From: an alpha proteobacterium HIMB59 | GTDB lineage: Bacteria; Pseudomonadota; Alphaproteobacteria; HIMB59 | Length of the DNA: 64,000 bases | Assembly: GCA_000299115.1 (NCBI GenBank) | Contig: CP003801.1 | Coordinates: 1,302,001 to 1,366,000 of the forward strand | Direction of reading: 5' to 3' | Shown: one piece after another, positions 48,664 to 64,000 of the stretch | How the letters are laid out: the number at the start of each line of letters is the position of its first letter | How positions within the stretch are numbered: position 1 is the stretch's first letter | Notes under the pieces: generated by a model | The model's database searches: none | What the model saw: only the letters and a program-made list of their open reading frames with translations | What the model was told of the DNA's origin: nothing | Program-made: the position numbers and the translations under genes

Positions 48664-49749
48664 TTGTTAATTTTAGTAAAAGTTTTTTTTTTAGTTCTTT
48701 TTATACATACAAAACCTATTTTCGCCTCTGAAGAATGCAGTAATGAAAAAAATTTAAAAATTGGCCTGATAAATAATGATTATATTGATTACCAATATTA
48801 TCTCTATTATGAACTTGGAAACTTTGTTCAAGAAAATAATATTGATTTTGAATTAGCTTTTGTTGATCAAAACATTGATGAATTTGACATAGTTTTTGGT
48901 GAATTTAATCAACTTAAAAAATTATCAAGTAAAGAAATTTTATTACCTAATCAGATTAAAAAATTTTATGAAAGCAATGGTTTAGACATTAAATACAATA
49001 TTTTACCCTTAGATTTAGATACTTTAATAGTTCTGAGCTATGAAACAATTTCAATAAAATATTTGGAAGAACTCAGTAATATTTTTAGTCCAATAAAATA
49101 TACTTTCGGTATGAACTTTAATAATAATAATTACTTATCTAAACTCATATCATTCTCAAGTCATCAACAAATAATAGATATGAAGTCCCATACAGTTGAG
49201 TCAACTTTAAGTTCTTTGAATAAAATTTATAGTAATACCAATAAAAATATTTTAGATGCTAATTTTCTTGAACTTTATAATTCATATGAATCTAGAGAGA
49301 ACCTGTTTACTTTTTTTAGTGACGGAATTATTCTTTATAAAAATTTACAAGATTCTTACTTCAATGTTTTTCCTCAAAATGAATTTATCTGGAATGAAGA
49401 TATAGGTATCTTTGATAAAATTTCTGAACCTGTTCCTTACTCTTATTATGGTTTTAGTGCTTACATTAACAATTCTAACCAAATTGGACTACTATGTCAT
49501 TTGACAAAACAAGAAGTCAGAGATAATACTTTCAAAAACTTTAATTTACAGATTAGCCCTCTATCAGCGTATGAATTAAAAAATTTTGACGATTTACCAG
49601 ATGGATATGAAAAAGTAGTTAATTTAAAAAATAAAAATGTTGTAAATATTGAAGAGGAGTTATTGAACAATATCGACCTTATAAGAGATATTATTTTTAA
49701 TAATCAAGAGTACAGAAATATTATTGATAGCAATAGATACCTAAACTAA
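48664..49749 (+). CDS. Putative periplasmic solute-binding-like protein
   Basis: 361 residues with a signal peptide (about 1-21, ending in IFAS). The mature start KNLKIGLINNDYIDYQYY, an alternation of short strands and helices, and FDIVFGEFNQL around residue 75 resemble the periplasmic binding fold of ABC transporter substrate proteins. I cannot assign a family with confidence, and no permease or ATPase gene is adjacent. Two Cys are present, one just after the signal peptide (EECS). The start is TTG at 48664; there is no closer ATG or GTG. Composition is Asn/Ile/Lys-rich like its neighbours. Confidence 0.5.
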   Translation: MLILVKVFFLVLFIHTKPIFASEECSNEKNLKIGLINNDYIDYQYYLYYELGNFVQENNIDFELAFVDQNIDEFDIVFGEFNQLKKLSSKEILLPNQIKKFYESNGLDIKYNILPLDLDTLIVLSYETISIKYLEELSNIFSPIKYTFGMNFNNNNYLSKLISFSSHQQIIDMKSHTVESTLSSLNKIYSNTNKNILDANFLELYNSYESRENLFTFFSDGIILYKNLQDSYFNVFPQNEFIWNEDIGIFDKISEPVPYSYYGFSAYINNSNQIGLLCHLTKQEVRDNTFKNFNLQISPLSAYELKNFDDLPDGYEKVVNLKNKNVVNIEEELLNNIDLIRDIIFNNQEYRNIIDSNRYLN

Positions 49750-49931: not shown

Positions 49932-50639
49932 ATGATGAAACTGAAAGAAATTAAACTCAGTGTTATAATCCCCTATTACAATGAGATTAGGACTATCGAA
50001 AATTTAATTCAAAAAATAAAAAATTGTAAAACAAAAATACATGAAATTATTATTGTTAATGATGCTTCTACAGATAATTCATATGAAACACTTGAGAAAC
50101 TTAAAAAAGAAAATCAAAATATTATTTTGATACATTCAAAAAAAAATAATGGAAAAGGAAAATCAATAAAAATAGGCCTTCAATATTCATCCGGTAACTT
50201 GGTATTAATTCAAGATGCCGATCTTGAATATGATCCAAATGATTATAACGCTTTAATTAACCCTTTTATAAATAAATCTGCAGACGTAGTTTATGGATCA
50301 AGATTTTTAGGAGGAGAATGTAGAGTAATCTACTATTGGCATAGAGTGGCAAATATGTTTCTTACACACTTTTCAAATGTGTTTACTAATTTAAATATGA
50401 CAGATATAGAAACTGGATACAAAATATTTAAAAATGAAGTTTTAACTAAAATAGAGATAGAAGAAAATAGATTTGGTTTTGAGCCTGAAATAACTGCAAA
50501 AATATCAAAGAAAAATTTAAGAATTTATGAAGTACCTATTTCATACGATGGAAGATCATACGAAGAAGGTAAAAAAATTGGATTCAAAGATGGCATCAGA
50601 GCAATTTACTGTATAATAAAGTATAATTTATTTAGATAA
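49932..50639 (+). CDS. GT2 glycosyltransferase, DPM1/GtrB-like
   Basis: 235 residues of a soluble GT-A domain: SVIIPYYNE at 10-18, NDASTDNS at 43-50, the metal/nucleotide motif QDADLEYDP at 94-102, YGSRF at 121-125 and TDIETGYKIF at 157-166. This is the pattern of polyprenyl-phosphate sugar transferases such as dolichol-phosphate mannosyl-type enzymes, here without the C-terminal membrane helices of GtrB. It may make polyprenyl-phosphate-sugar donors for the GT-C protein in this region. No Shine-Dalgarno precedes the two tandem ATGs. Confidence 0.9.
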   Translation: MMKLKEIKLSVIIPYYNEIRTIENLIQKIKNCKTKIHEIIIVNDASTDNSYETLEKLKKENQNIILIHSKKNNGKGKSIKIGLQYSSGNLVLIQDADLEYDPNDYNALINPFINKSADVVYGSRFLGGECRVIYYWHRVANMFLTHFSNVFTNLNMTDIETGYKIFKNEVLTKIEIEENRFGFEPEITAKISKKNLRIYEVPISYDGRSYEEGKKIGFKDGIRAIYCIIKYNLFR

Positions 50640-51617
50640 GTATTTTTGAAGAGTGTGTTGTAATAATATAAAAACTAAAATTTGAAAAAAGAAATACCAA
50701 AATAATAAAACTCCACTATCTTTTATAAAGTAAGTAGGTAAAAGTAAAAAAATCAATAAGGTTGTTATAAAAAAAGAACTAAGTGAATTATTTGAAGTTA
50801 ACCTATTTAATAAAGAATGGAAATGAAGGTTATCTGGATAAAAAGGAGATTTACCTCTTATAAGTCTTCTTAAAACACATGTAGTAGTATCAGCTATTGG
50901 GTAAGCTAACAAATTTGCAATGAACCATTCTGATTTTGGGAGATAATTTAAATTAAAATAATAAATTAAAAATAATCCGATAAATGTTCCTAAGAAATAT
51001 GATCCCGAGTCGCCAATAAATGACTTAGGATTTGGAAAATTAAAAAAAAGAATTACCAAGTTAAATAAAATAAAAATTAAAATAAATTTATCTGAAGTTA
51101 AAAAATACAAATACAAAAAAATGATAACCGTATATGATAGGCATAAACCATTGAGACCATCTATAAAATTAATAGAATTAATTAATGCAACGATAAAAAC
51201 AGATGTAATAATTTTATGTAAAAGAAAGCTATCCGAAGATAAGTTTAAAAAACTAATTTCTTTTAAAACAAAAATATTATTTAAATTCAAAAATAAGAAA
51301 ATAATCACGAATTGTAAAATTAGCCTTATTTTAGGTTTTATTGAAAACTTAAGATCTTCGATAATACCTATAGACATCAATATCAAAGAAATAAAAAAAA
51401 GATATGAAAGATCAAAAGTTTTAAAATACAAAATTATTGGAAATAAAAATAAATATGAAATACCAAGTACCCTTGGAGTGTTAGCAGAATGAACACTATG
51501 TTTTTTCAAATATGGATTATCAATAAATAATTGATATTTTTTAGCAAAATTAATCAATATTAAGTTAATTAAAATAATAAAAATAAAAAAAAAAAATAAA
51601 TATAAATAATTTATCAT
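50628..51617 (-). CDS. WecA/MraY-type polyprenyl-phosphate sugar-1-phosphate transferase
   Basis: Polytopic protein of 329 residues with about ten membrane segments. Catalytic motifs are IIEDL at 85-89, NSINFIDGLNGL at 147-158, FIGDSGS at 200-206, IADTT at 241-245 and the nucleotide-sugar loop DNLHFHS at 262-268 (His-x-His). It would initiate a lipid-linked glycan by transferring sugar phosphate to undecaprenyl phosphate. The HxH loop favours a UDP-HexNAc substrate of the WecA/TagO group. It overlaps the convergent GT2 gene by 12 bp and the upstream GT-C gene by 1 bp. Confidence 0.88.
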   Translation of the reverse strand: MINYLYLFFFFIFIILINLILINFAKKYQLFIDNPYLKKHSVHSANTPRVLGISYLFLFPIILYFKTFDLSYLFFISLILMSIGIIEDLKFSIKPKIRLILQFVIIFLFLNLNNIFVLKEISFLNLSSDSFLLHKIITSVFIVALINSINFIDGLNGLCLSYTVIIFLYLYFLTSDKFILIFILFNLVILFFNFPNPKSFIGDSGSYFLGTFIGLFLIYYFNLNYLPKSEWFIANLLAYPIADTTTCVLRRLIRGKSPFYPDNLHFHSLLNRLTSNNSLSSFFITTLLIFLLLPTYFIKDSGVLLFWYFFFQILVFILLQHTLQKYLSK

Positions 51618-53416
51618 TAGGACTTAAAACAATTATCGATTTTTTTATTTAAAGAATAAAGTTGAAAATTTTTAGATTTTAAATAAGCAGGATTTCGCGC
51701 AGATGTCTTTATATTACCAGTCTCAAATATTAATTCTTTTCTAATACAGTTTAGAAAAAAATGAGTGTTAAAATCTGTTTTATCAGCAAAAATATATTGG
51801 ATATTATTACGTTTAAGATGGTTTATGAATTCAAGTCTATCAGGGTCAGAATGTGAAGTAATTACAGATGAAATAAGCTCGAAAGATGAAAAAATGTTTG
51901 TATTAAATAAATTAGACCTAGAGTACGATATTATTCCAACTTCCATGTTATTATCTATTAAAAATTCATCTAATTTCTTAAAATATATATAATCATATCC
52001 ATGTTTAATTAAAATATCCTCTCTTGATTTACTATCAAAAATAGATGAACCAAAAAGATAAAGAGAAAATGAGAGTAAAGATATTAAAGAAAAAAATTGG
52101 GTGTATGATAAAAATATTAAAAAATTTTTTTTTATAATAGAAAAGTTGATACTTATATAGTCTATTGAAAACAATAACGATAAAAAAAATAATAAAAAAT
52201 AAAACCTAGTAGATGTTTGAAATAAAAACAATGAAATGATCAACATCATTAATATAACTAATTTATCTTTAAGATTATCTTTTATTATAAATACTAAAAA
52301 AAAATAAAATGAAAAAATTCCAAGAAAATTGGTCAAATTATAAATTGAAGTAGGTACAATAATATTTAACAGTAATTGAGGAGTGAATTTTAAAAATTGT
52401 TTTTGATCACTAACCCAATCATTAAATAAAAATGTCAATGGACTATCTTGAACATAAAATGGGAAATACGGGAATTCAAAATATTTTATTCTGAATAAAT
52501 ATAAAAGTAAAAACAAAATAGGAAAAACTAAAATCGAATAAAAAATAAATTTCTTTAAAAGCTTAAAATCTTTATTTAAACAACTTATAATAAATATTAA
52601 AGGATAAACATAAAAAGTAATTTTTGTTAATACTGCATAAAAAAAAACACTTAAATACTTAAAACTAATATTTTTTTCTACTTTTAAAAAATTAAAAATT
52701 GACAATCCGATTATAATAATTGGTCCCAAAAAAAATTTTTGAGAAATAATCAAAAAATAAAAAAAAGGAGTTGAAAAAAAAAGAATTATCAAATTCTGAT
52801 TAATTTTTTTTAATTGAAAATATTCAATTAAAAAAAATAATAAAATAATAAAATAGATAAAATTTAAGAGTGATACATAATTATCCGAACCATATATAAG
52901 ACCAAATAAATTATTTATTTCGGCATAACTTACTAAATTTGTATGGAACCAACTTTCATTTAAATAATCAAAATTGTTCACAATTAGTTTATATGGTAAA
53001 GCTAGATGATAGGTATACGAGTCCCCATCTAAAGCGACTATAAAAGAAGATATAAATAGTAATATAAAGCCTAAAAAAAAGATTTTATAATTAAATAGGA
53101 ATTTAACTAAATTATTTATTTGTTTAGTAAATTTTAATAAATTTCTTTTTCCATTTTTAAAATAAATTAATATTGAGAATAAGAAGAAGAAAAAGATTAA
53201 AAATTTTAAATAATTATCTAATTGAAGCAATATTAGAGCAATTATTAATATATTATTTACAATTATTAAGATTGTGAAATTTATTAAAAGACCAAAACTA
53301 TAAATTTTTGATGAGTTACTTATTAACAAAGATGGGATCAATAAACTAAAAATCAAAATTAAATTTATAAAAAAATTAGTTATTGGATCATTTAAATAGT
53401 TAATATAGTTTTCCAT
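51617..53416 (-). CDS. GT-C type membrane glycosyltransferase (PMT/ArnT-like)
   Basis: 599-residue protein with roughly 12 or more hydrophobic segments. After the N-terminal segments comes ALDGDSYTYHLALP (129-141), resembling the first periplasmic loop of GT39/GT83-type enzymes in which an acidic residue is catalytic and YHLALP follows. The C-terminal soluble domain (about 490-599) is mixed alpha/beta. It probably transfers a sugar from a polyprenyl phosphate in the periplasm. The acceptor is unknown. Confidence 0.65.
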   Translation of the reverse strand: MENYINYLNDPITNFFINLILIFSLLIPSLLISNSSKIYSFGLLINFTILIIVNNILIIALILLQLDNYLKFLIFFFFLFSILIYFKNGKRNLLKFTKQINNLVKFLFNYKIFFLGFILLFISSFIVALDGDSYTYHLALPYKLIVNNFDYLNESWFHTNLVSYAEINNLFGLIYGSDNYVSLLNFIYFIILLFFLIEYFQLKKINQNLIILFFSTPFFYFLIISQKFFLGPIIIIGLSIFNFLKVEKNISFKYLSVFFYAVLTKITFYVYPLIFIISCLNKDFKLLKKFIFYSILVFPILFLLLYLFRIKYFEFPYFPFYVQDSPLTFLFNDWVSDQKQFLKFTPQLLLNIIVPTSIYNLTNFLGIFSFYFFLVFIIKDNLKDKLVILMMLIISLFLFQTSTRFYFLLFFLSLLFSIDYISINFSIIKKNFLIFLSYTQFFSLISLLSFSLYLFGSSIFDSKSREDILIKHGYDYIYFKKLDEFLIDNNMEVGIISYSRSNLFNTNIFSSFELISSVITSHSDPDRLEFINHLKRNNIQYIFADKTDFNTHFFLNCIRKELIFETGNIKTSARNPAYLKSKNFQLYSLNKKIDNCFKS

Positions 53417-53448
53417 AATGAAGTTATTTTACTATTAAGAATTATATA

Positions 53449-54210
53449 ATGTTTAATAAAAAATTATCAATAATTTCAGTATTAATGAATAATGAGGACA
53501 CTATATTGAAAATGAAAAATAGTGTAACGAAACAAAATTTAAAAGATTATGAACATATTTTTTGTTTATCAAAAAGATCTAAAGACAACACTAGTAATAT
53601 TGTTAATAAATACTTGACTGCTAATGATATTGTTTTTTATGAGGCTGAAAATACAGTTAATAAGTTTGATGCAATTAATCAAGCAATAAAGATATCAAAA
53701 GGAAGGTATTTGTTTCTCCTTCATGGTGATGATTACATCATTAATGAAAATTTTTTTTTTGAAATTTTTAATATCATATCGAAAGAAAATGATAAGGGTA
53801 TCTTTTATACAAATATAAATATCGTTGATAAATATGATGAAATAAAAAGAAATTGGATTGCAATAAATGACGATAACCTTAATCTTTCAAATGCATGGCT
53901 CATACCTCATACTGGTATTTTAATTGATAGGTATAAAGTAAAAGATAAAGATCTTTATTATAATTCAGACTTTTTTATATCTGGTGACCTACTGTATATA
54001 TTGAAACTAATAAAAAAATACCAAAGGTTATTTAAAAAAATTAATGTTTACTCTGTAAATATGCTTAATACTGGTGACTCCTCTAAATTTAAGAATATCT
54101 TAGAGCAGTTTTATCAAGATAAAAAAATCTTAAAAAGATTTTTTCCAAAAAATTACTTAAAAATTATTTTTTTAAAAAAATTTTCCAAGGTTTATCAGTT
54201 TTTTGTATAA
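53449..54210 (+). CDS. GT2 family glycosyltransferase
   Basis: 253 residues with a GT-A domain: SIISVLMNNEDTI at 7-19, SKRSKDNTSNI at 41-51 in place of the usual D-G-S-T-D, AINQAIKISKGRYLFLLHGDDYI ending in the DxD-like GDD at 93-95, and SGDLLYILKL. Similar to WcaA/colanic-acid type transferases with a HGDD motif. It diverges from the GT-C gene across 32 bp, and its last 47 bp are inside the convergent ligase gene. Confidence 0.85.
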   Translation: MFNKKLSIISVLMNNEDTILKMKNSVTKQNLKDYEHIFCLSKRSKDNTSNIVNKYLTANDIVFYEAENTVNKFDAINQAIKISKGRYLFLLHGDDYIINENFFFEIFNIISKENDKGIFYTNINIVDKYDEIKRNWIAINDDNLNLSNAWLIPHTGILIDRYKVKDKDLYYNSDFFISGDLLYILKLIKKYQRLFKKINVYSVNMLNTGDSSKFKNILEQFYQDKKILKRFFPKNYLKIIFLKKFSKVYQFFV

Positions 54211-55357
54211 ATAAAAAACCTATTAAAGTGAAATTAATTGATGCATTCCAGTTATTGTAAAAATTAGACATTGAAGAAATAGGCCAAAATATACAAATCG
54301 ACAAAACAACAAATCCAACATATTTTGAATTATAAAGTTTTAGATCGATAATTCTTTTTCCTATAAAAAAAATAAATAAAGATAACCCCGTCATTCCTAT
54401 AATGCCTGTTTCTGAGAGAGTTTCTAGATATAAATTGTGAGGATGGGTGGCGCAGGGGTCAACAGTTGTAGAAATTTTATTTAAAATATTAGGGTCACTA
54501 CAAATCTCTCTGAATGTTTTAAAACCTGATCCTGTAATTGGATTTTCTAAGAAAATATTAATGGCTGCCAAATAATGGGCGCCATGACCAGTATCTTTAA
54601 AATTAGATAATGCATAAAAAAACTCCATATATTTAAAATTTTTTTCAGGAAAAAATAAAAAGAAAAAAAGCAGTGATATGAAAAATAAAATCATAGTAAT
54701 AAATAAAAATTTGTACTTTTTGGTGAAGAGAAGAATTAGAAAAACACCAAAAATAAATAAAATTAAGGCCATTCTTTCACCTGATAAAACTATAGAAACA
54801 AAAGAAATAATTAAAATAAGAGAAAATATTAAATTTTTATTTAGATACAAAAAATAACCAATGATAGGTAGAGATAATTTCATTATATAAGTGCCAATTA
54901 TATATTCATCGTCAAATGGTCCATTCAATCTTTGTCTATTTACTTGCATATTTGCTTCAATTCCAAAAAGATCTTTTCCATAATTATATTGAACTAATAA
55001 ATCAAAGAATAAAAAACAAACTATAAATAGTAAAAAATACATAAATACATTTATAATTTTTTCTTCAACAAAATATAAAAATAATAGTAAATAAAAAAAA
55101 TACCTAAAATCTACAAGAGACTCTAAAAATGATAATTTTATATCTATTGAAAATAAAGATGTTAAAAAAATAATTAAATAACATCCTAGAATAAATTTTA
55201 AATTAGTATCATTTAAATCAAGTTTTTTTATGATAAATAAAAAAACTCCAATTATAGCAGATAAAGTTAGTATAATATCAGGAATAGCTGGGCCAGTTAT
55301 TAAAGTTAAAATAATTAAAAAAACAAAGGAGTTTCTAATATATAAGTTTTTATCCAT
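54164..55357 (-). CDS. O-antigen ligase-like membrane protein (WaaL/Wzy superfamily)
   Basis: 397 residues, about 11 membrane segments and a large periplasmic loop (about 237-312) containing NPITGSGFKTF and THPHNLYLE with His305 and His307. SGERMAL (192-198) is the conserved Arg-containing segment of the Wzy_C/WaaL fold. Such proteins ligate polysaccharide to lipid A core or polymerise repeat units; sequence does not distinguish these. It lies 4 bp downstream of the carbamoyltransferase-GT2 fusion gene. Confidence 0.85.
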   Translation of the reverse strand: MDKNLYIRNSFVFLIILTLITGPAIPDIILTLSAIIGVFLFIIKKLDLNDTNLKFILGCYLIIFLTSLFSIDIKLSFLESLVDFRYFFYLLLFLYFVEEKIINVFMYFLLFIVCFLFFDLLVQYNYGKDLFGIEANMQVNRQRLNGPFDDEYIIGTYIMKLSLPIIGYFLYLNKNLIFSLILIISFVSIVLSGERMALILFIFGVFLILLFTKKYKFLFITMILFFISLLFFFLFFPEKNFKYMEFFYALSNFKDTGHGAHYLAAINIFLENPITGSGFKTFREICSDPNILNKISTTVDPCATHPHNLYLETLSETGIIGMTGLSLFIFFIGKRIIDLKLYNSKYVGFVVLSICIFWPISSMSNFYNNWNASINFTLIGFLFIQKTDKPWKIFLKK

Positions 55358-55361
55358 TAAA

Positions 55362-57893
55362 TTAAGGTTTAGATTTTTTTAACTTGTTAATTAAAATAAA
55401 CAGATCAACTAAAAACCTATAACAAAATCCTTGAATAAAATAATAGATTAGTCCAGTTATTCCATCTCTAAAGCCTTTTTTTATAATAACAATGTAAAGA
55501 AAATAAAAAAAAGATCTTAAAAAAATTGGAGTTTTATAATAAAAATTGTATTTATTTTGTCTATTAATGGAAAAATTTGAGTATTCATTAACAAAACCAC
55601 TACGTATTTTTAAATGATTCGATGACTCTAATTTGGCATATTTAAGATGTTTTTTCATAAAATCTTTTATAGGCTTTAGATTATTCTCTATAAAATAATT
55701 TTTAGATTTGACAAGCATTCCCTTACTAACAATTATTTGCTCATCAACAAGATCATCAGAACATTTGCCATACCCAGTTTTCCATAATCTAAGAATATAT
55801 GACTCTGATTGATTGCCATATTTTAGGAGACTTCCTAAGAAAGTTATATGGCGTTTTACAAAAATACCAAAAAAATTCTTATTCATTAGATTTTTGAGCT
55901 CATCAATTAATTTTGTATTTAGTAGTTCATCAGCATCTATCCGTAAAGTATACTTTTTTTTGTATGGATTATTTTTTATGGCATAATTAATTTGATTTGA
56001 ATAATTATCAAATTTTCTTTGTTTATATTTAATTTTATATTTATTTAAAATTTCAACTGTATTGTCTGTAGAAAATGAGTCTATCACATAAATATTTTGA
56101 TTATATTTGAGTAAATTTTTAATTAATCTTTCGATATGAATACCTTCATTTAATGTAATACAAATAATTGACACATCATCTTTAAAAGATAATTTTTTAC
56201 GAGTGTATTCATTTTTTTTTAAGTAATAATTTCCTAAAAAAAGACTATCTAAGTCATTTCTTAAAAAACAATCAATAGCTTCAGAGGGATGAGTAACAAC
56301 GGGTTCATTTTCATTAAAAGATGTGTTTAATAATATAGGAATTTTGTATTCGTGAAAAAAATTTGAGATTAATTCATAATATATACCGTTTTGTTTGTTA
56401 ACTGTTTGCAGTCTACCTGTACCATCTTTATGCACCACAGAGGGTATCAATCTTTTTTTAGAATTTTTAAATTTTAATACTTTTACCATATAGGGGTCTG
56501 AACAATCTTTTGCTTCAAACCAATTTTTAGACTCAGACTCTAAAATAGAAGGTGCAAACGGCCTAAAACTCTCTCTTCTTTTAATTTTCTTATTGATTAA
56601 AGATTTCATATTTCTAAAAGTTGGATTGGCTAAAATTGACCTGTTTCCTAGTGATCTTGGACCCCACTCTAGTTTCCCCTGAAACCAACCTATTACCTTT
56701 CCCTTAGAAAGTTCACTGATAGCTTTAGATATTAAATCTTTTTTATTTAGTTTTTTAATTTCAAAAATATTACTAAATTCAGAGATATATTTACTAATTT
56801 CATTATTTGAATATTCAGGCCCAGTATAAATAGGAATGGGTTTTAGATTTTGAATATTTTTTTTATAGTTTTTATGAAAGTTAGCATAAATTGAACCTAT
56901 GGCCCCTCCAGCATCGTGGGGTGTTGCCCCGATATATAAATTTTTTATTTTTGAACAATTATTTAGTACTTTACCATTTAATAAAGAATTTAATGCACAC
57001 CCACCTGTAAGACAGAGATTACTATTTAAATTTGAGTATTTATTAATAATTTTAAAAACAATTTCTTCAAATTTTTTTTGAACTGAAAAAGCTACATCAA
57101 AATCTTTGAATTTTGAAAAAACCTTTTTTAATTTATCTGAGTATAAATTCTTATATTCAATTTGCTGATTAATATTATGTGTTTCAATTTCAGTTTTATG
57201 ATGAATAAAATAATCCAAATTTAGTTTAAAAAGATTTTTGTCACAATACTGAATCACATTATCCATTTCATTGATATATTTTTTACCATAAGCAGACATG
57301 CCCATTACTTTATATTCGTCTCCATAGTTTTTGAATCCTAGATATTGTGTAAAAGCTTGGTAAAATATTCCAAGAGAGTGAGGGAAATATACACTATCTA
57401 TTATTCTAAAATTATTTTTTTCAAATAAACCAATTAGTGAACTCTTTTGATCTCCAAAGCCATCAATACTTATTACAAGCGCATTTTTAAAACCAGAAGA
57501 ATAAAATGAATAAAATACATGACACTCATGATGATCAAAAAATTTTAATTTAGAGAAATTTTTTAAGCCAATTTCTTTTAATGAATCAATAACTTTTTTA
57601 TATTTAGATTTATTAACAATTTTTAATTTTCTTATTAATAAAGGATTTTTAATTATTGAATATATCTTGAAACTTAAGTTTTGTTTTTGATCAAAATTTA
57701 TACTTATAGAATGAAAATCATTAATTGTTATTTCAAGTTTTTTTAATGCATATTCAATCGAATTTTTTGGGAAACCAAACCAATTTTTTTTTCTATTTAA
57801 CCTTTCTTCTTCTATAGCAAAAATTATTGTTTCATCTTTAATTATAGCGATAGAAGAATTAGCATGAAAACAATTGATACCTAAATGATACAT
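55362..57893 (-). CDS. Carbamoyltransferase fused to a GT2 glycosyltransferase
   Basis: 843 residues. Residues 1 to about 335 match the NodU/CmcH/TobZ N-terminal domain: GINCFHANSS at 5-14, the metal-binding DHHECHVFYSFY at 120-131 (His121, His122, His125), ISIDGFGD at 141-148, LTGGCALNS at 295-303. Residues about 355-560 match the C-terminal Sua5/YrdC-like carbamoyltransferase domain: FQGKLEWGPRSLGNRSIL at 404-421, RPFAPSI at 444-450, LLNTSFN at 521-527. From about 574 a complete GT2 domain follows, with SIICITLNEG at 575-584, IDSFSTDNT at 604-612, RIDADE at 651-656, and two hydrophobic segments near the end (792-804, 813-835). The reading frame is continuous. Expected role: O-carbamoylation of a sugar plus transfer of a sugar. 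Confidence 0.88.
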   Translation of the reverse strand: MYHLGINCFHANSSIAIIKDETIIFAIEEERLNRKKNWFGFPKNSIEYALKKLEITINDFHSISINFDQKQNLSFKIYSIIKNPLLIRKLKIVNKSKYKKVIDSLKEIGLKNFSKLKFFDHHECHVFYSFYSSGFKNALVISIDGFGDQKSSLIGLFEKNNFRIIDSVYFPHSLGIFYQAFTQYLGFKNYGDEYKVMGMSAYGKKYINEMDNVIQYCDKNLFKLNLDYFIHHKTEIETHNINQQIEYKNLYSDKLKKVFSKFKDFDVAFSVQKKFEEIVFKIINKYSNLNSNLCLTGGCALNSLLNGKVLNNCSKIKNLYIGATPHDAGGAIGSIYANFHKNYKKNIQNLKPIPIYTGPEYSNNEISKYISEFSNIFEIKKLNKKDLISKAISELSKGKVIGWFQGKLEWGPRSLGNRSILANPTFRNMKSLINKKIKRRESFRPFAPSILESESKNWFEAKDCSDPYMVKVLKFKNSKKRLIPSVVHKDGTGRLQTVNKQNGIYYELISNFFHEYKIPILLNTSFNENEPVVTHPSEAIDCFLRNDLDSLFLGNYYLKKNEYTRKKLSFKDDVSIICITLNEGIHIERLIKNLLKYNQNIYVIDSFSTDNTVEILNKYKIKYKQRKFDNYSNQINYAIKNNPYKKKYTLRIDADELLNTKLIDELKNLMNKNFFGIFVKRHITFLGSLLKYGNQSESYILRLWKTGYGKCSDDLVDEQIIVSKGMLVKSKNYFIENNLKPIKDFMKKHLKYAKLESSNHLKIRSGFVNEYSNFSINRQNKYNFYYKTPIFLRSFFYFLYIVIIKKGFRDGITGLIYYFIQGFCYRFLVDLFILINKLKKSKP

Positions 57894-57903
57894 AAGAATT
57901 TAA

Positions 57904-57928
57904 AATTTATATAATTAGTCTATAAATT
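57904..57928. promoter_or_regulatory. 8-bp inverted repeat between the fusion gene and the asnB-like gene
   Basis: AATTTATA (57904-57911) and TATAAATT (57921-57928), 9 nt apart, in the 43-bp divergent gap. TATAAT-like boxes for both directions overlap it. It is made only of A and T, so it may be chance. Confidence 0.2.
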
Positions 57929-57936
57929 GAAATAAA

Positions 57937-59601
57937 ATGTGTGGTTTTTTAATAACTTGTGACAATAATATTCAAATAGATAAATTCAATAAATCTTTTG
58001 AACAAATTCGGTCTCGCGGTCCAGATGAAAGTAGGATAACACAGCACAAAAATATACTTAAGATGGGTTTCCATCGATTATCAATAATTGATGATCATGA
58101 AAGAAGCATGCAGCCTTTTTTTTATAAAAATAAAATTCTTTTATATAACGGTGAATTTTATAATTATGTTCATATAAAAAAAAAAATTCAAAACAATCAT
58201 AAGATAGAATTCCATACCAACTCAGATACAGAAGTGTTTCTACAAAATATTTTAATAAATGGCATTGAAGGTTATGAAGATATTATTGGTATGTTTGCCT
58301 TTGCAATTTTTGATAAAGAAAAAAATGAAATTAAGTTTGGGAGAGATAACTTTGGCATTAAACCACTATACTATTATTTTGATCATAAATCTCTTATCAT
58401 TTCATCTAGTATCAAATCAGTAAATATAATAGCTCAACAAAAAATCAATAATTTTAATTTAATAAATTTTAATAAATATGGTTTTACATATGGTGATGAA
58501 ACTATTTATCAAAATATAAATGAATGTAAGCCTGGTATTGAATATACAATAGATTTAAATATGAAAACTTTACGTTCAAAAAGTTTTTTTAATTTAAAAA
58601 ATATAATTTCAAATCAAAAAAATAATTTCATAAATAATAAAGTAGATTATTTTAAAGAAAATATCAAACTTCACTTAGTTTCTGATGTAAAAAGCTGTGT
58701 TTTAAAATCTAATGGGATAGATTCAAACTTAATTGCATACTATAAAAATGAAATTCAAAAAAAGAATGAATATATTTATTTTGATAAAAATAATATTAAT
58801 TTTAAAATCCAACATTCTCAACAAAACTTTAATTCGATTAGTTTAAGTGAAGATGAATATCAAAATTATTTTCATGAGTATTTAGACTCACTTGAGTACC
58901 CTACTATTGATGGTTTCAATACTTACTTAATTACTAAAATTTCAAATCAAAATAAATACAAAGTCTGTCTTTCTGGATTAGGATTGGATGAAATATTTGA
59001 TGGATATGGCATAAGTAAAAAGATTAGACTAGCAAAAATTCTTAATTCATTAAAATTTTTTAAAAAATTTACATACAAGCCAAATAACATCAAAATTGAT
59101 AAGTTAATTAGTTGTGCAAACTGTAGTGACATACTAGATTATTATTTAGAGATAAGGAAGATTTCGACCCAAAAAAATTTGTTTAAGAAATTTGAAACAA
59201 AGGAAATTGAAAATCACAGATTAAAATTAAAAACATTAATGCTTGAGAGTTTATCTATAACAAATATCTCCACTTATAAAAAAAATGATTTGATTAAATT
59301 ATTTGAATTCGAATTTTACCTAAAGAATCAACTTTTAAAAGATAGTGATTTTTTTTCTATGCTTAATTCTGTTGAATTAAGAGTGCCATTTGTTGAGAAA
59401 ATGTTCATCGAAAACATATCAGTTGACAACCCCAATAATATAAACAAAAGAAAATATCTATTTCTGAATTACAAATCCATACTTAATAATTTAAATATTG
59501 AAAAACAAAAAGAAGGTTTTATTGCTCATAATTTTTATAAATTAAAAGGAATAAAAAATTATGAAAATATAATCAACATTGTAAATAAAAAATTTATTTG
59601 A
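57937..59601 (+). CDS. Asparagine synthetase-like glutamine amidotransferase
   Basis: 554 residues. The N-terminal class II glutaminase domain begins with the nucleophile Cys2 (MCGF) and has RGPDES at 27-32, YNGEFYNY at 70-77 and NSDTEV at 95-100. The synthetase domain has its PP-loop as SNGIDSN (258-264) instead of SGGxDSS, and SGLGLDEIFDGYG (346-358), where AsnB has SGLGxDExFxGY. PTIDGFNTYL and ELRVPFVEK fit as well. Members in O-antigen clusters, such as WbpS, are thought to amidate uronic acids. The changed PP-loop makes synthetase activity uncertain. Confidence 0.88.
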   Translation: MCGFLITCDNNIQIDKFNKSFEQIRSRGPDESRITQHKNILKMGFHRLSIIDDHERSMQPFFYKNKILLYNGEFYNYVHIKKKIQNNHKIEFHTNSDTEVFLQNILINGIEGYEDIIGMFAFAIFDKEKNEIKFGRDNFGIKPLYYYFDHKSLIISSSIKSVNIIAQQKINNFNLINFNKYGFTYGDETIYQNINECKPGIEYTIDLNMKTLRSKSFFNLKNIISNQKNNFINNKVDYFKENIKLHLVSDVKSCVLKSNGIDSNLIAYYKNEIQKKNEYIYFDKNNINFKIQHSQQNFNSISLSEDEYQNYFHEYLDSLEYPTIDGFNTYLITKISNQNKYKVCLSGLGLDEIFDGYGISKKIRLAKILNSLKFFKKFTYKPNNIKIDKLISCANCSDILDYYLEIRKISTQKNLFKKFETKEIENHRLKLKTLMLESLSITNISTYKKNDLIKLFEFEFYLKNQLLKDSDFFSMLNSVELRVPFVEKMFIENISVDNPNNINKRKYLFLNYKSILNNLNIEKQKEGFIAHNFYKLKGIKNYENIINIVNKKFI

Positions 59602-60701
59602 AAATCTTAGTAATTATTCCATCATTTTACCCATATATTGAAAATGGAGGACCCATTATTTATTTAAATAAATTATTTAAAAAATTATCTAGTAATAAAA
59701 TAAATATAACAGTTTTAACCTCAAAATATAGTTACACCAATAAAGAACATAAAATAAAATCTGCGTTAAATATTAATAAAAATTATGAAGTTAAATATTA
59801 TCCAATAACTTTTGGAAAAGTTTCGATAAAATTATGTTATTCGATTATCAAAGAAATCAATAAATATGATTATGTATACTTTAATAGTTTTTTTAATATA
59901 TATCTGATTACTACTCTTTTATTTAGTAATAAAAAAATCTTTCTTAGCCCAAGAGGACAGTTGATAGCTGAAAATATTAAGAAAAAAAACCATTTTATAA
60001 AATATTTATTTATTAAAATAATAAATATTTTTGATAAAAAAATATTTTATATTTTTAGTTCAAATTTTGAATTAATAAATAATTTGTACTCGAAAATTTA
60101 CAAATATGAATTAATTCCTAATTCTGCTAGTTATGAACCCATTAAAGTTACTCAAGATATATTTCGAAAAAAAAGTAAATTCAAAACTAAAAAGATATTA
60201 ACAATATCTAGATTATCAAAAAGAAAAAATATAGATTTAATATTAAAAGCGGCGGCAATTTTACGAAACTTTTATTTTGAAATTATTGGGCCTGACTTTG
60301 GCCAATTGAATCAATTATTTGATCAAGTAGAAAAAAATAAATTGAAAAACGTAACTATTATAGAGTCTCTTACAACAGAGCAGATTAGAAAAAAATTTAT
60401 TGAAAGCTATATTTTCTTACTTCCTTCAGAAAATGAAAACTTTGGTAATGTTTTTCTAGAGTCTATATTGCATTTTGTTCCTATAATTACGATAAGAGGT
60501 TCTTATTGGGATGAGATAATAAAACAAAACAATGTAGGACTTAGTACCAAAAAATGTGAAAAGGATATTGTCTTAAAAATCAAGCAATTAGATAATTTAT
60601 ATGCTACATTAAAATTAAATGAATTTAAAAATGTTCAAAAAATTCATAATACAGAAATGATCTCAAATAAATTCTTAAAAACTTTTCATGCGAATTGTTA
60701 A
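59598..60701 (+). CDS. GT4 family glycosyltransferase
   Basis: GT-B fold transferase of 367 residues. The N-terminal acceptor domain starts KILVIIPSFYPYIENGGP with the glycine-containing loop, and the C-terminal donor domain has TISRLSKRKNIDLILKAA and SENENFGNVFLES, with the E-x7-E motif of the family. SYWDEII follows. The start is TTG at 59598 in a TTGA overlap with the AsnB-like gene; there is no other nearby start. It overlaps the acyltransferase gene by 14 bp. Confidence 0.9.
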   Translation: MKILVIIPSFYPYIENGGPIIYLNKLFKKLSSNKINITVLTSKYSYTNKEHKIKSALNINKNYEVKYYPITFGKVSIKLCYSIIKEINKYDYVYFNSFFNIYLITTLLFSNKKIFLSPRGQLIAENIKKKNHFIKYLFIKIINIFDKKIFYIFSSNFELINNLYSKIYKYELIPNSASYEPIKVTQDIFRKKSKFKTKKILTISRLSKRKNIDLILKAAAILRNFYFEIIGPDFGQLNQLFDQVEKNKLKNVTIIESLTTEQIRKKFIESYIFLLPSENENFGNVFLESILHFVPIITIRGSYWDEIIKQNNVGLSTKKCEKDIVLKIKQLDNLYATLKLNEFKNVQKIHNTEMISNKFLKTFHANC

Positions 60702-61140
60702 AAACCAAATCAGAGATATTAAATATGGGAAAAATGTAAAAATATATGAACCAGTTAATCTATATGAGTGTGAATTTTCAGATAATGTCAAGATTGGACC
60801 ATTTGTTGAAATTCAAAAAAACGTAGTTATTGGGAAAAATACTACAATATCAAGTCATTCATTTATATGTGAACTTGTAACAATTGGGGAGAATTGTTTT
60901 ATTTCTCATGGGGTAATGTTTACAAACGATTTATTCAAAAATGGTAGCTTAGGTGGTTCTCAGGAAAAATGGAAATCTACAAATATTGGAAATAATGTAC
61001 TTATAGGAAGTAATTCTACAATTCTTCCCGTAGAAATCTGTGATAATGTAGTAATTGGTGCCGGAAGTGTAGTTACCAAAAGTATTAAAAAGTCTGGAAT
61101 TTATTTTGGGGTGCCGGCAAAATTCATAAGAGAATTATGA
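60688..61140 (+). CDS. Hexapeptide-repeat acyltransferase, WlbB/WbpD-like
   Basis: 150 residues built of left-handed beta-helix hexapeptide repeats ([LIV]-G-x4) throughout: VKIGPF, VVIGKN, VTIGEN, TNIGNN, VLIGSN, VVIGAGS. The SHGVMFTNDLF insertion and GVPAKFIREL end match acetyltransferases of nucleotide-sugar pathways. It probably N- or O-acetylates a sugar. The last 40 bp overlap the convergent FkbM gene. Confidence 0.9.
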   Translation: MRIVKNQIRDIKYGKNVKIYEPVNLYECEFSDNVKIGPFVEIQKNVVIGKNTTISSHSFICELVTIGENCFISHGVMFTNDLFKNGSLGGSQEKWKSTNIGNNVLIGSNSTILPVEICDNVVIGAGSVVTKSIKKSGIYFGVPAKFIREL

Positions 61141-61949
61141 AAACTATAATTAGAAGCTATAACATGTCCATTAAAATTGTCAGACAATGTTATGACATTA
61201 TATAAATCGTCTTTGATAAAAAAATAATTATAATTAATTTTTTTAAAAAAGGTTACAGTCTCCTCTGAAATGCACTCTATATAAATGAAACAATTATTAT
61301 TTTTTAGAATTTTTTTCATGCCCTTTAAAACATTAAGTTCATGACCTTCGGTATCAATTTTAATTAGAATATTTTGACCAAAATAATCAAAATAATCATC
61401 AAAAATTTTTAAATTTATAATTTTAAATTTATCTAAATTAAAATATTTATCTGGACTTAAAGAAATATTTCCAAGATTTGGAGAATTGTTAGAAAAAAAT
61501 ATTTTTTCACGTTTGTTTTTATTTGATAGACCAAAATTATAGGTTTTAATATTACTATTGTTGATAGAGCAATTAATATTTAATTTTTCAAAATTATTTG
61601 GGAAGGGTTCAAATGACAAAGTTTCAATCTTATAGGAAATAGGTAATGAAAAATATCCAATATTAGCACCAATATCTAAAAATAAATTAAAATTATTTGA
61701 CTTAATTAAATTTTGAAAAAATCTTAAAAGTGCAATTTCGTGACCCTTGAAGAATATCATGCCCCATTCTATATAAGATGAAGTATTACAAAGAAATTTA
61801 GCTTGATTAATTTTTATAATTTTTTCAACGTTTTTATACTTTCCATGAAAAATTTTATCAGGATTATAAATTCTACGAATTATACTTATCTTGAATGGAA
61901 AAAAAGGTATTAAAGAAATTATTTTTGAAAAAAAAAATCTAAAATTCAT
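61101..61949 (-). CDS. FkbM family methyltransferase
   Basis: 282 residues with SAM-binding motif LDIGANIGYF at 91-100, SFEPFP at 112-117 and the family hallmark KIDTEGHE at 197-204. FkbM-type enzymes O-methylate sugars or other small molecules and are common in polysaccharide clusters. The ATG is in an ATGA overlap with the upstream polymerase-like gene. Confidence 0.9.
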   Translation of the reverse strand: MNFRFFFSKIISLIPFFPFKISIIRRIYNPDKIFHGKYKNVEKIIKINQAKFLCNTSSYIEWGMIFFKGHEIALLRFFQNLIKSNNFNLFLDIGANIGYFSLPISYKIETLSFEPFPNNFEKLNINCSINNSNIKTYNFGLSNKNKREKIFFSNNSPNLGNISLSPDKYFNLDKFKIINLKIFDDYFDYFGQNILIKIDTEGHELNVLKGMKKILKNNNCFIYIECISEETVTFFKKINYNYFFIKDDLYNVITLSDNFNGHVIASNYSFHNSLMNFAGTPK

Positions 61950-63328
61950 TTTAGTTTTTTGTATTTACATAGATATAAAAAAGAAATAATTAAAAATAAT
62001 AAATAGTAAATATGACCAACAGCTAGAGACAAATTATTTTGAAAATTAAAAATGCAAAATAATATTGGCACAAGTACAAAATTATAATTTCTAAAAAATT
62101 TAATAATAAAAAGATAAGGAAATAAAAAAAGGGTAAATATTAAAGGTGATATAATAAAACCATAATAAGAAAAATTCACGAATGACTCAGCAAAAAAATT
62201 AATAGGTCTTGAATGTGAGGATTCATACCTCATTAAACCATATTTTTTTGGTAAACTTCCTCCAAATTTTTCAGTTGGTTTATTGGGGAAAATAAACCTA
62301 GGTACAAATTTAAAAAAAAGATTTTTATAAGTATCCCCCAATAAATAATATGAATTATTTTCATGAAAAAAAATATTGTAATTATTTAATTCTCTTAAAA
62401 AATCATATCTGGATAAAAAATTATTACTAAATTTATCTAAATTAAATGAACTTAAATCAATATTATTAAAATTATTTACTTTATTACTTTCTTTATAAAT
62501 AAACTTCTTATCACTTAGATATTTTTTACAATATGAACCAACAGAAATATTATCACAATTAAAATTATCTAAACTCGAAATAGCGTAATCATAACTTGTT
62601 AAATATTTTTCTTTTGAACAAATAAATTTATCACTTTTAATTATTGAGGTGGATCTTAAATAATCTCTAATTAGGAAAGATATAAGAAAAATGATAAATA
62701 AAAATGTAGAGTAAATTATTATTTTTTTAATTTTATTATTTTCCTCTAATAAAAGAAAAAAAATAATAATTAACATGTATGAAGCTAAATCATAAATTGA
62801 GCCAAGGAATACCTGAAGTAAAATTAGTAAATTAAATAATATAAAAAAATATGTAATAAAATTATTTTTTAATTTCAATTTATTAACTATTCCAAAAACT
62901 ATATAGAAAATAATATAATCGAATGATCCAATTAGATAAAATATTTGTGAGTATTTATTGATCACATTACATTGAGAAAATAAAATAAAAATTTTATTAA
63001 TTAAGATTAAAAATAAAATTATTCTAAAATAAATATCTTTGGTTAATATCTCGTAATTTTGAATTTTATAAAATTTAATTTTTAAAATCTTAATAGTAAA
63101 GAATAAAAAAAAAATTAGACTTAGTGTTGAAAGAATAATAAAAATTAAACTAGCTACTAATAAATAATAATCATTAGCATAGTAATCACGATAAGGGATT
63201 TTAAGAAAATAATTTTCAAAATAATATCCATTTATTTTAAAATTAAGAATTGAAAATATTAATGAGACATAAATTGGAACAAATAGCAGACTAATAGCTA
63301 GTAATGTTTTATTAAAATTTTTTACCAT
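61946..63328 (-). CDS. Wzy-like polysaccharide polymerase membrane protein
   Basis: About 460 residues with some ten membrane segments and one large loop (about 230-355). That loop ends in FVPRFIFPNKPTEKFG, then ESSHSRPINFFAESFVNFSYYG, which follows the pattern of oligosaccharide repeat-unit polymerases (R-x-[IL]-P-R-x2-[FW]-P-x-KP ... E-x3-NFG/S-x-x-G). The frame extends one codon to a TTG at 63331, but I prefer the ATG at 63328. It overlaps the downstream FkbM gene by 4 bp and the upstream glycosyltransferase by 17 bp. Confidence 0.75.
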   Translation of the reverse strand: MVKNFNKTLLAISLLFVPIYVSLIFSILNFKINGYYFENYFLKIPYRDYYANDYYLLVASLIFIILSTLSLIFFLFFTIKILKIKFYKIQNYEILTKDIYFRIILFLILINKIFILFSQCNVINKYSQIFYLIGSFDYIIFYIVFGIVNKLKLKNNFITYFFILFNLLILLQVFLGSIYDLASYMLIIIFFLLLEENNKIKKIIIYSTFLFIIFLISFLIRDYLRSTSIIKSDKFICSKEKYLTSYDYAISSLDNFNCDNISVGSYCKKYLSDKKFIYKESNKVNNFNNIDLSSFNLDKFSNNFLSRYDFLRELNNYNIFFHENNSYYLLGDTYKNLFFKFVPRFIFPNKPTEKFGGSLPKKYGLMRYESSHSRPINFFAESFVNFSYYGFIISPLIFTLFLFPYLFIIKFFRNYNFVLVPILFCIFNFQNNLSLAVGHIYYLLFLIISFLYLCKYKKLK

Positions 63329-64000
63329 CAAATACCTTAAGAATTTTTTCCCAGTTAAAAGTTTTAATAACCTTATTGTATGAATTAATAACTATTGAAT
63401 TTCTGGAATTATCACTCTCAAGATAGAATTTAATTTTTTTTAAACACTCTTTAGGAGAGTCGAAGTCATCAAAATGTTTTCCTCTATTGAATATTCTATT
63501 TAATTCTTCTGATTTAGAGGACAAAACAAAACAACCTGATGAGATGATTTGATAAACTCTAATTGAAAAACTAATTCGATCTCTTGTAAAATTTAATGCA
63601 ATTTTTGATTTTTGATAAATTTTATTTAAATCCTCATTATAAACTTCGCCATTTCTATATCCCAAACCATAACAGATAATTTCAATACCATTTTTTTTTA
63701 AATAGTTAATATACTTATCACGATAGGCATTTCGAGAACCAATGAAAACTATGTCGTAAATCTTAGGTAAATTATTATTGATTTTCCATTTTTTTATATC
63801 GACTCCCTGAGGGCAATAAAAAATTAATTTATTGATTTTTTTATGTGAAGATAATACTTCAGACATAATTTTTGATACAACAAAAGATTTAGAGGAATAG
63901 TTAAAATGATTATATAAACGATAATTTGATATTTCCTTCATGGAGTCAAAAAAATAATAATATACCGGAGTATATTTTTTTATAATTTTAAAAGTTTTAG
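63312..64000 (-). CDS. Glycosyltransferase family 1 (CgeB-like), 5' part outside window
   Basis: The frame has a Met at 63941, but codons stay open from there to the window edge, so the gene very likely starts beyond 64000 and only its C-terminal part is seen. The visible part has the GT-B donor-domain pattern: DIVFIGSRNAYRDKYINYL, a YQKSKIALNFTRD helix/strand, and the SSGCFVLSSKSEEL motif followed by FDDFDSPKECLKKI, typical of glycosyltransferases grouped with CgeB/DUF3880. The substrate cannot be told. Confidence 0.8.
   Translation of the reverse strand, partial: KTFKIIKKYTPVYYYFFDSMKEISNYRLYNHFNYSSKSFVVSKIMSEVLSSHKKINKLIFYCPQGVDIKKWKINNNLPKIYDIVFIGSRNAYRDKYINYLKKNGIEIICYGLGYRNGEVYNEDLNKIYQKSKIALNFTRDRISFSIRVYQIISSGCFVLSSKSEELNRIFNRGKHFDDFDSPKECLKKIKFYLESDNSRNSIVINSYNKVIKTFNWEKILKVFDGKKF

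Follow-up and report, generated by a model that had tools for sequence, protein, structure and literature searches.

The chromosome of the alphaproteobacterium HIMB59 contains a gene in which a carbamoyltransferase (CT) and a GT2 glycosyltransferase appear to be encoded as one polypeptide. This raises the questions of whether the joining is genuine, what it would do in the cell, and whether it creates a new kind of enzyme. A first-pass annotation of the window, by which we mean the whole 64,000-nucleotide stretch of DNA analyzed here, described a single-chain fusion and suggested that it may define an unrecognized class of polysaccharide-modifying enzyme. In this study, we examined the reading frame, the two halves of the protein, the genomic island around the gene, and the relatives of both domains in other genomes.

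Results

The gene (55362..57893, 843 amino acids) lies on the minus strand and reads from 57893 to 55362 as a single frame of 843 codons that begins with ATG, ends with TAA, and is interrupted by neither a stop nor a frameshift. Much of the first-pass annotation is borne out, although it did not give the strand. The uninterrupted frame that it reported spans all 843 codons, and the complete carbamoyltransferase and GT2 domain that it placed in one chain were recovered by the domain search it had proposed as three Pfam domains above their curated cut-offs. These are Carbam_trans_N (Kae1-like) at residues 4-334 (56892..57884, minus strand; E 5e-44), Carbam_trans_C (YrdC-like) at residues 394-560 (56214..56714, minus strand; E 8e-62), and Glycos_transf_2 (PF00535) at residues 575-698 (E 7e-13). 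Its motifs IDSFSTDNT and RIDADE are found at residues 604-612 and 651-656, and the junction, which it put near 56,170-56,220, falls at about 56216-56174. The halves are connected by a linker of about 13 residues (residues 561-573, NEYTRKKLSFKDD; 56175..56213, minus strand). Judging from the start codons, it is improbable that the GT2 half is translated on its own: the stretch from residue 546 to residue 669 holds no in-frame ATG and just two in-frame GTG codons (574 and 603), both within the GT2 fold, and no Shine-Dalgarno-like stretch was seen ahead of codon 574.

By its domains, metal ligands, and fold, the N-terminal half is a class III (TobZ/GdmN-type) O-carbamoyltransferase, with carbamoyl transfer as its predicted activity. 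Both Carbam_trans domains are present, as expected of class III. In a phmmer alignment, H121, H125, D144, and D327 line up with the Fe ligands H133, H137, D156, and D333 of GdmN (residue roles from PMC9633730), and H10 lines up with the GdmN general base H27. The four ligands (two His and two Asp) are invariant among 18 relatives in the CT alignment. In an AlphaFold2 model, this half matches VtdB, GdmN, and TobZ with a probability of 1.00 and TM scores normalized to the target of ~0.6 to 0.74, and Foldseek matches to 7xb6, 7vzq, and 3vex (E down to 1e-37) identify the Kae1-like plus YrdC-like fold. A NodU identity was rejected, as the protein scored 147 bits against the cut-off of 1000 for the NF041651 equivalog; neither the fused protein nor its relatives reached the cut-off of any NCBIfam model. 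Class III enzymes use carbamoyl phosphate and ATP to form carbamoyl-AMP, from which the carbamoyl moiety passes to a hydroxyl (PMC9633730).

The GT2 domain with its C-terminal extension covers residues 574-843 (55365..56174, minus strand), as delimited by Pfam, alignment, and fold. Besides the PF00535 match, it has the GT-A fold, matching GT-A enzymes that include SunS and TarP, with a Leptospira glycosyltransferase at a TM score of 0.68 (AlphaFold2 model), and it contains the DxD metal/nucleotide-sugar motif D653-A-D655 (55929..55937, minus strand), features that mark it as a GT2 (GT-A) enzyme. D605, D610, and the DxD motif are all kept and are invariant in 14 relatives. A C-terminal block, GFLDG..G..FHFLQ.FWYR.LVD, is conserved across relatives of the GT2 subfamily, and the C-terminal helices (residues 776-841; 55371..55568, minus strand) are conserved in stand-alone relatives. 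The first-pass annotation had noted terminal hydrophobic segments here. They belong to the conserved block of the GT2 subfamily and are not clear transmembrane helices, because they are amphipathic, with a best 19-residue Kyte-Doolittle mean of 1.46; we presume that they associate with the membrane surface. The model of the whole protein has a mean pLDDT of 77.5 and a pTM of 0.63, at which the relative placement of the CT and GT2 domains is unreliable. In the linker, model confidence is low near residues 563-568. By their kept motifs, both halves look intact and functional.

The gene sits in a surface-glycan island, recognized from its gene content, that occupies 49932..63941 of the window and runs ~16 kb past it (L061:1-15600) up to the 5S/23S rRNA genes. 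The island contains GT2s, a WecA-like GT4, Wzy_C, a further GT4, a hexapeptide acetyltransferase, and an FkbM methyltransferase; past the window there are a heptosyltransferase-like gene and genes that, judged by eye, resemble GmhA, HldD, and HldE. An O-antigen ligase/polymerase family gene (Wzy_C; 54164..55357, minus strand) lies 4 nucleotides downstream of the fused gene and is its probable operon partner. On the other side, 43 bases separate the start of the fused gene from a divergent gene for an asparagine-synthase-like amidotransferase (57937..59601, plus strand). The flanks are an NAD-kinase neighborhood and the rRNA operon, and the G+C content is 0.21 to 0.24 inside the island versus 0.29 to 0.32 outside. 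From the conserved gene at 48664-49749 to the 5S/23S rRNA genes, the island measures ~30 kb. Six of eight sister genomes pass straight from that conserved gene into the rRNA region without an island, and the other two have different genes at the site. This variability between strains agrees with the hypervariable LPS island published for the HIMB59 order (PMC10734472). Such islands are viewed as varying to evade phage recognition (PMC10734472). The same genome has, in the region L062:5530-9037, a second, stand-alone CT of another clade (615 amino acids), flanked by a small membrane-protein-like gene and, on the opposite side in most copies, by a gene of ~370 amino acids; similar layouts recur in relatives (L072, L073, L074, and L075).

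Whole genomes were searched at the level of the order (162 genomes), the class (385 genomes), the phylum (398 genomes), 60 relatives, and one further family (74 genomes), sets that overlap and are not additive; no other single-frame CT-GT2 was found. A scan of 84,980 species genomes was sampled through its 80 best loci, and neither these nor 80 viral loci contained the fused form; no place in phages and plasmids covered 80% of the protein. Single-protein scans of genome and viral contigs returned no relative; the relatives came from the alignment-based search. All apparent full-length matches were inspected at the level of open reading frames, and each was rejected as a fusion: L055 (G476) is a CT, a stop, and a GT2 of a different subfamily; L085 and L140 have one stop each at the junction; L025/L048 (896 amino acids), L050, and L052 have GC-rich open upstream extensions; and the remaining matches over residues 1-830 are separate adjacent genes. 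The first-pass annotation had named separate genes in all relatives, with a stop at the junction, as a refutation, and in every relative examined the two domains are indeed separate genes. Given two intact domains and a clean linker, this points to rarity and not to an artifact, and the fusion looks real and rare. We found no publication of the CT-GT2 architecture in the open-access literature (subscription journals lay outside the search). Other CT fusions do occur, with deacetylase or methyltransferase partner domains. These are long single frames in alphaproteobacteria that combine a CT with a C-terminal polysaccharide deacetylase (L051:2896-6165), an N-terminal polysaccharide deacetylase with a CT (L054:1466-4198), and a CT with a methyltransferase (L053:2930-5824). 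In Xanthomonas phage XacN1, the CT (L046:5692-7989) is extended at its C terminus by ~230 residues that match nothing in Pfam.

As separate genes, the CT clade and the GT2 family are a recurrent pair in many bacteria, spanning Pseudomonadota, Bacteroidota, Acidobacteriota, Chloroflexota, Thermodesulfobacteriota, and Melainabacteria. A GT2 of this family lies within 1.5 kb of the CT at 7 of 26 loci of the fused protein's CT clade, whereas 0 of 31 loci in a related clade of CTs have one (Fisher p=0.0025, equal 1.5-kb flanks). When the 80 best loci for genomic CTs are considered, 30 have a GT2 of the same family in the fetched stretch, a figure biased upward, as these loci were ranked by the full-length fused protein. 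The gene order in split pairs is mostly GT2 and then CT. Of 13 clade loci from alphaproteobacteria that have 1.5-kb flanks (L018-L030), 6 lack such a GT2 near the CT, and the order's three nearest CTs (L002-L004) lack one as well. In a tree of 69 GT2s, a clade of 14 members (support 99/95) unites the fused domain with the CT-adjacent GT2s of L162 and L140; its exact sister is unsure because the domain is highly diverged and its branch is long (2.3, with skewed composition).

Two split pairs have both genes in one frame. In L140, a Lysobacterales metagenome-assembled genome (MAG), the arrangement is CT-TAG-GT2, in the same order and frame as in the fused protein, and when read through the TAG the pair aligns to that protein end to end (37% identity, 555 bits). 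The first 26 codons of the L140 GT2 include no ATG, GTG, or TTG, and this junction (L140:5051-5130) may represent coupled genes in which the GT2 starts at a CTG, or else a fusion that a stop or an error has broken. In L085, a proteobacterium, the arrangement is CT-TAA-ATG-GT2, with the junction TAAATG in frame. The loss of one stop in a pair like these would yield the CT-GT2 architecture.

The neighborhoods point to more than one possible target glycan. An LPS-core context is suggested by Wzy_C beside the fused gene and by HldE beside some relatives, adjoining the CT/GT2 pair in L103, L105, and L106; clusters with Gmd/Fcl or of an exopolysaccharide-like kind house other pairs. Several close CT relatives (L064, L065, L087, L089, L104, and L047) are neighbored by Gmd (GDP-mannose dehydratase) and Fcl (GDP-fucose synthase), which hints at carbamoylation of a deoxysugar. 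This context fits a deoxysugar polysaccharide as the target as well as it fits LPS core.

Discussion

We favor, as the fairly probable reading, a bifunctional, cytoplasmic, membrane-associated enzyme of LPS-type surface-glycan assembly that arose by the in-frame joining of a CT and a GT2. The C-terminal GT2 would draw on a nucleotide donor to add a sugar to a growing lipid-linked core or O-unit, while the N-terminal class III domain would form carbamoyl-AMP from carbamoyl phosphate and ATP. The carbamoyl group would then pass to a hydroxyl of the sugar added by the GT2, or of its acceptor, at the inner membrane. The gene itself would have arisen when a CT gene was joined in frame to the GT2 gene downstream of it, the two being a neighboring pair elsewhere. 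We infer catalytic activity, the sugar and position modified, and a shared substrate for the fused enzyme, which may also channel that substrate. The single fused instance counts against a bifunctional enzyme, as it leaves the fusion itself without a conservation test, and the abundance of GT2s in glycan islands could account for part of the CT/GT2 pairing. The marked divergence of the fused GT2, the clade CTs with no such GT2 close by, and those beside Gmd and Fcl also weigh against this reading. A broader and more tentative possibility is that the CT clade and GT2 subfamily form a widespread, unnamed two-component machine for coupled sugar addition and carbamoylation while surface glycans are assembled, in which the intermediate is passed between active sites when the two are fused.

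The same observations can be read in other ways. Both domains could be active but act on different residues or glycans, the fusion being a nearly neutral accident in a fast-rearranging island that ensures at most equal dosage. The presence of the fusion in only one of the genomes searched, the variation of the island between strains (PMC10734472), and the frequent location of clade CTs beside Gmd/Fcl or GT2s of other subfamilies are in keeping with this account, which we nevertheless consider rather unlikely, given that a specific GT2-family pairing recurs across phyla and distinguishes the two CT clades. It is more doubtful still that only one domain is catalytic and the other serves for docking or anchors the protein to the membrane: the GT2 half shows strong divergence, and the helices at its C terminus resemble a membrane-surface anchor, but the CT ligands and general base are all kept, as are the DxD motif and surrounding aspartates of the GT2.

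An error of sequencing or assembly that erased the stop between two adjacent genes is the least probable explanation and seems very improbable. Same-frame pairs separated by one stop exist in L085 and L140, so a single base could suffice, and the fusion is found in one genome only. However, that genome was assembled into one contig of 1,410,127 bases and is 99.87% complete, and if a stop had simply been lost to one substitution, the GT2 would still lack a good start, because the 13-residue linker has no ATG and the nearest start, GTG 574, has no evident Shine-Dalgarno stretch.

The first-pass annotation was right that a full CT and a full GT2, usually separate proteins, share one chain, and its suggestion that the fusion couples carbamoylation to glycosyl transfer is probably right. 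Its proposal of an unrecognized class of enzyme was overstated, as one fused copy was found and the two families form a recurrent adjacent pair. Both families are known and other CT fusions exist, so that the protein combines known domains in a new way without founding a new class of enzyme; because the two families recur as adjacent genes, the fusion amounts to the physical joining of a functional pair of known type. Together, the fusion and the unfused pairs point from each CT of the clade to a partner GT2, and hence to the sugar that is probably modified, and surface-glycan carbamoylation is directly testable in cultivable carriers of the split pair. The fused gene also belongs to a strain-variable surface-glycan island in a marine lineage.

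Among the known systems close to the GT2 half are the LPS-core GT2 enzymes of the WaaE/LgtF type. These enzymes, like the GT2s near HldE (L068), would share with it the GT-A fold, the DSxSTDxT and DADE motifs, the GFLDG C-terminal block, and possibly an LPS gene context; unlike the fused protein, both are stand-alone and lack a carbamoyltransferase. The CT half shares both Pfam domains, the Fe ligands, the general base, and a unit of ~560 residues with TobZ, GdmN, VtdB, NovN, and NodU, whose carbamoyl-AMP chemistry is expected for it too, although its identity to class III structures is ~24 to 27% in structural alignments. None of these five has a glycosyltransferase domain, and where GdmN has a C-terminal dimerization domain (PMC9633730), the fused protein has its GT2. 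A precedent for its role is found in Pseudomonas, where the LPS core has a carbamoyl group on HepII and WapO, encoded in the LPS core gene cluster, is the putative enzyme assigned to carbamoylate that core sugar (PMC8005017). WapO is a separate gene with HepII as its acceptor, and the likeness drawn here between it and the fused CT is one of proposed role. Further parallels are the split pairs, such as those of a Bradyrhizobium ISRA443 plasmid (L047), a Pedobacter (L153), and the Lysobacterales MAG, in which the same two families are adjacent but encoded by two genes, in contrast to the one gene of HIMB59, with the Lysobacterales pair sharing its order and frame as well.
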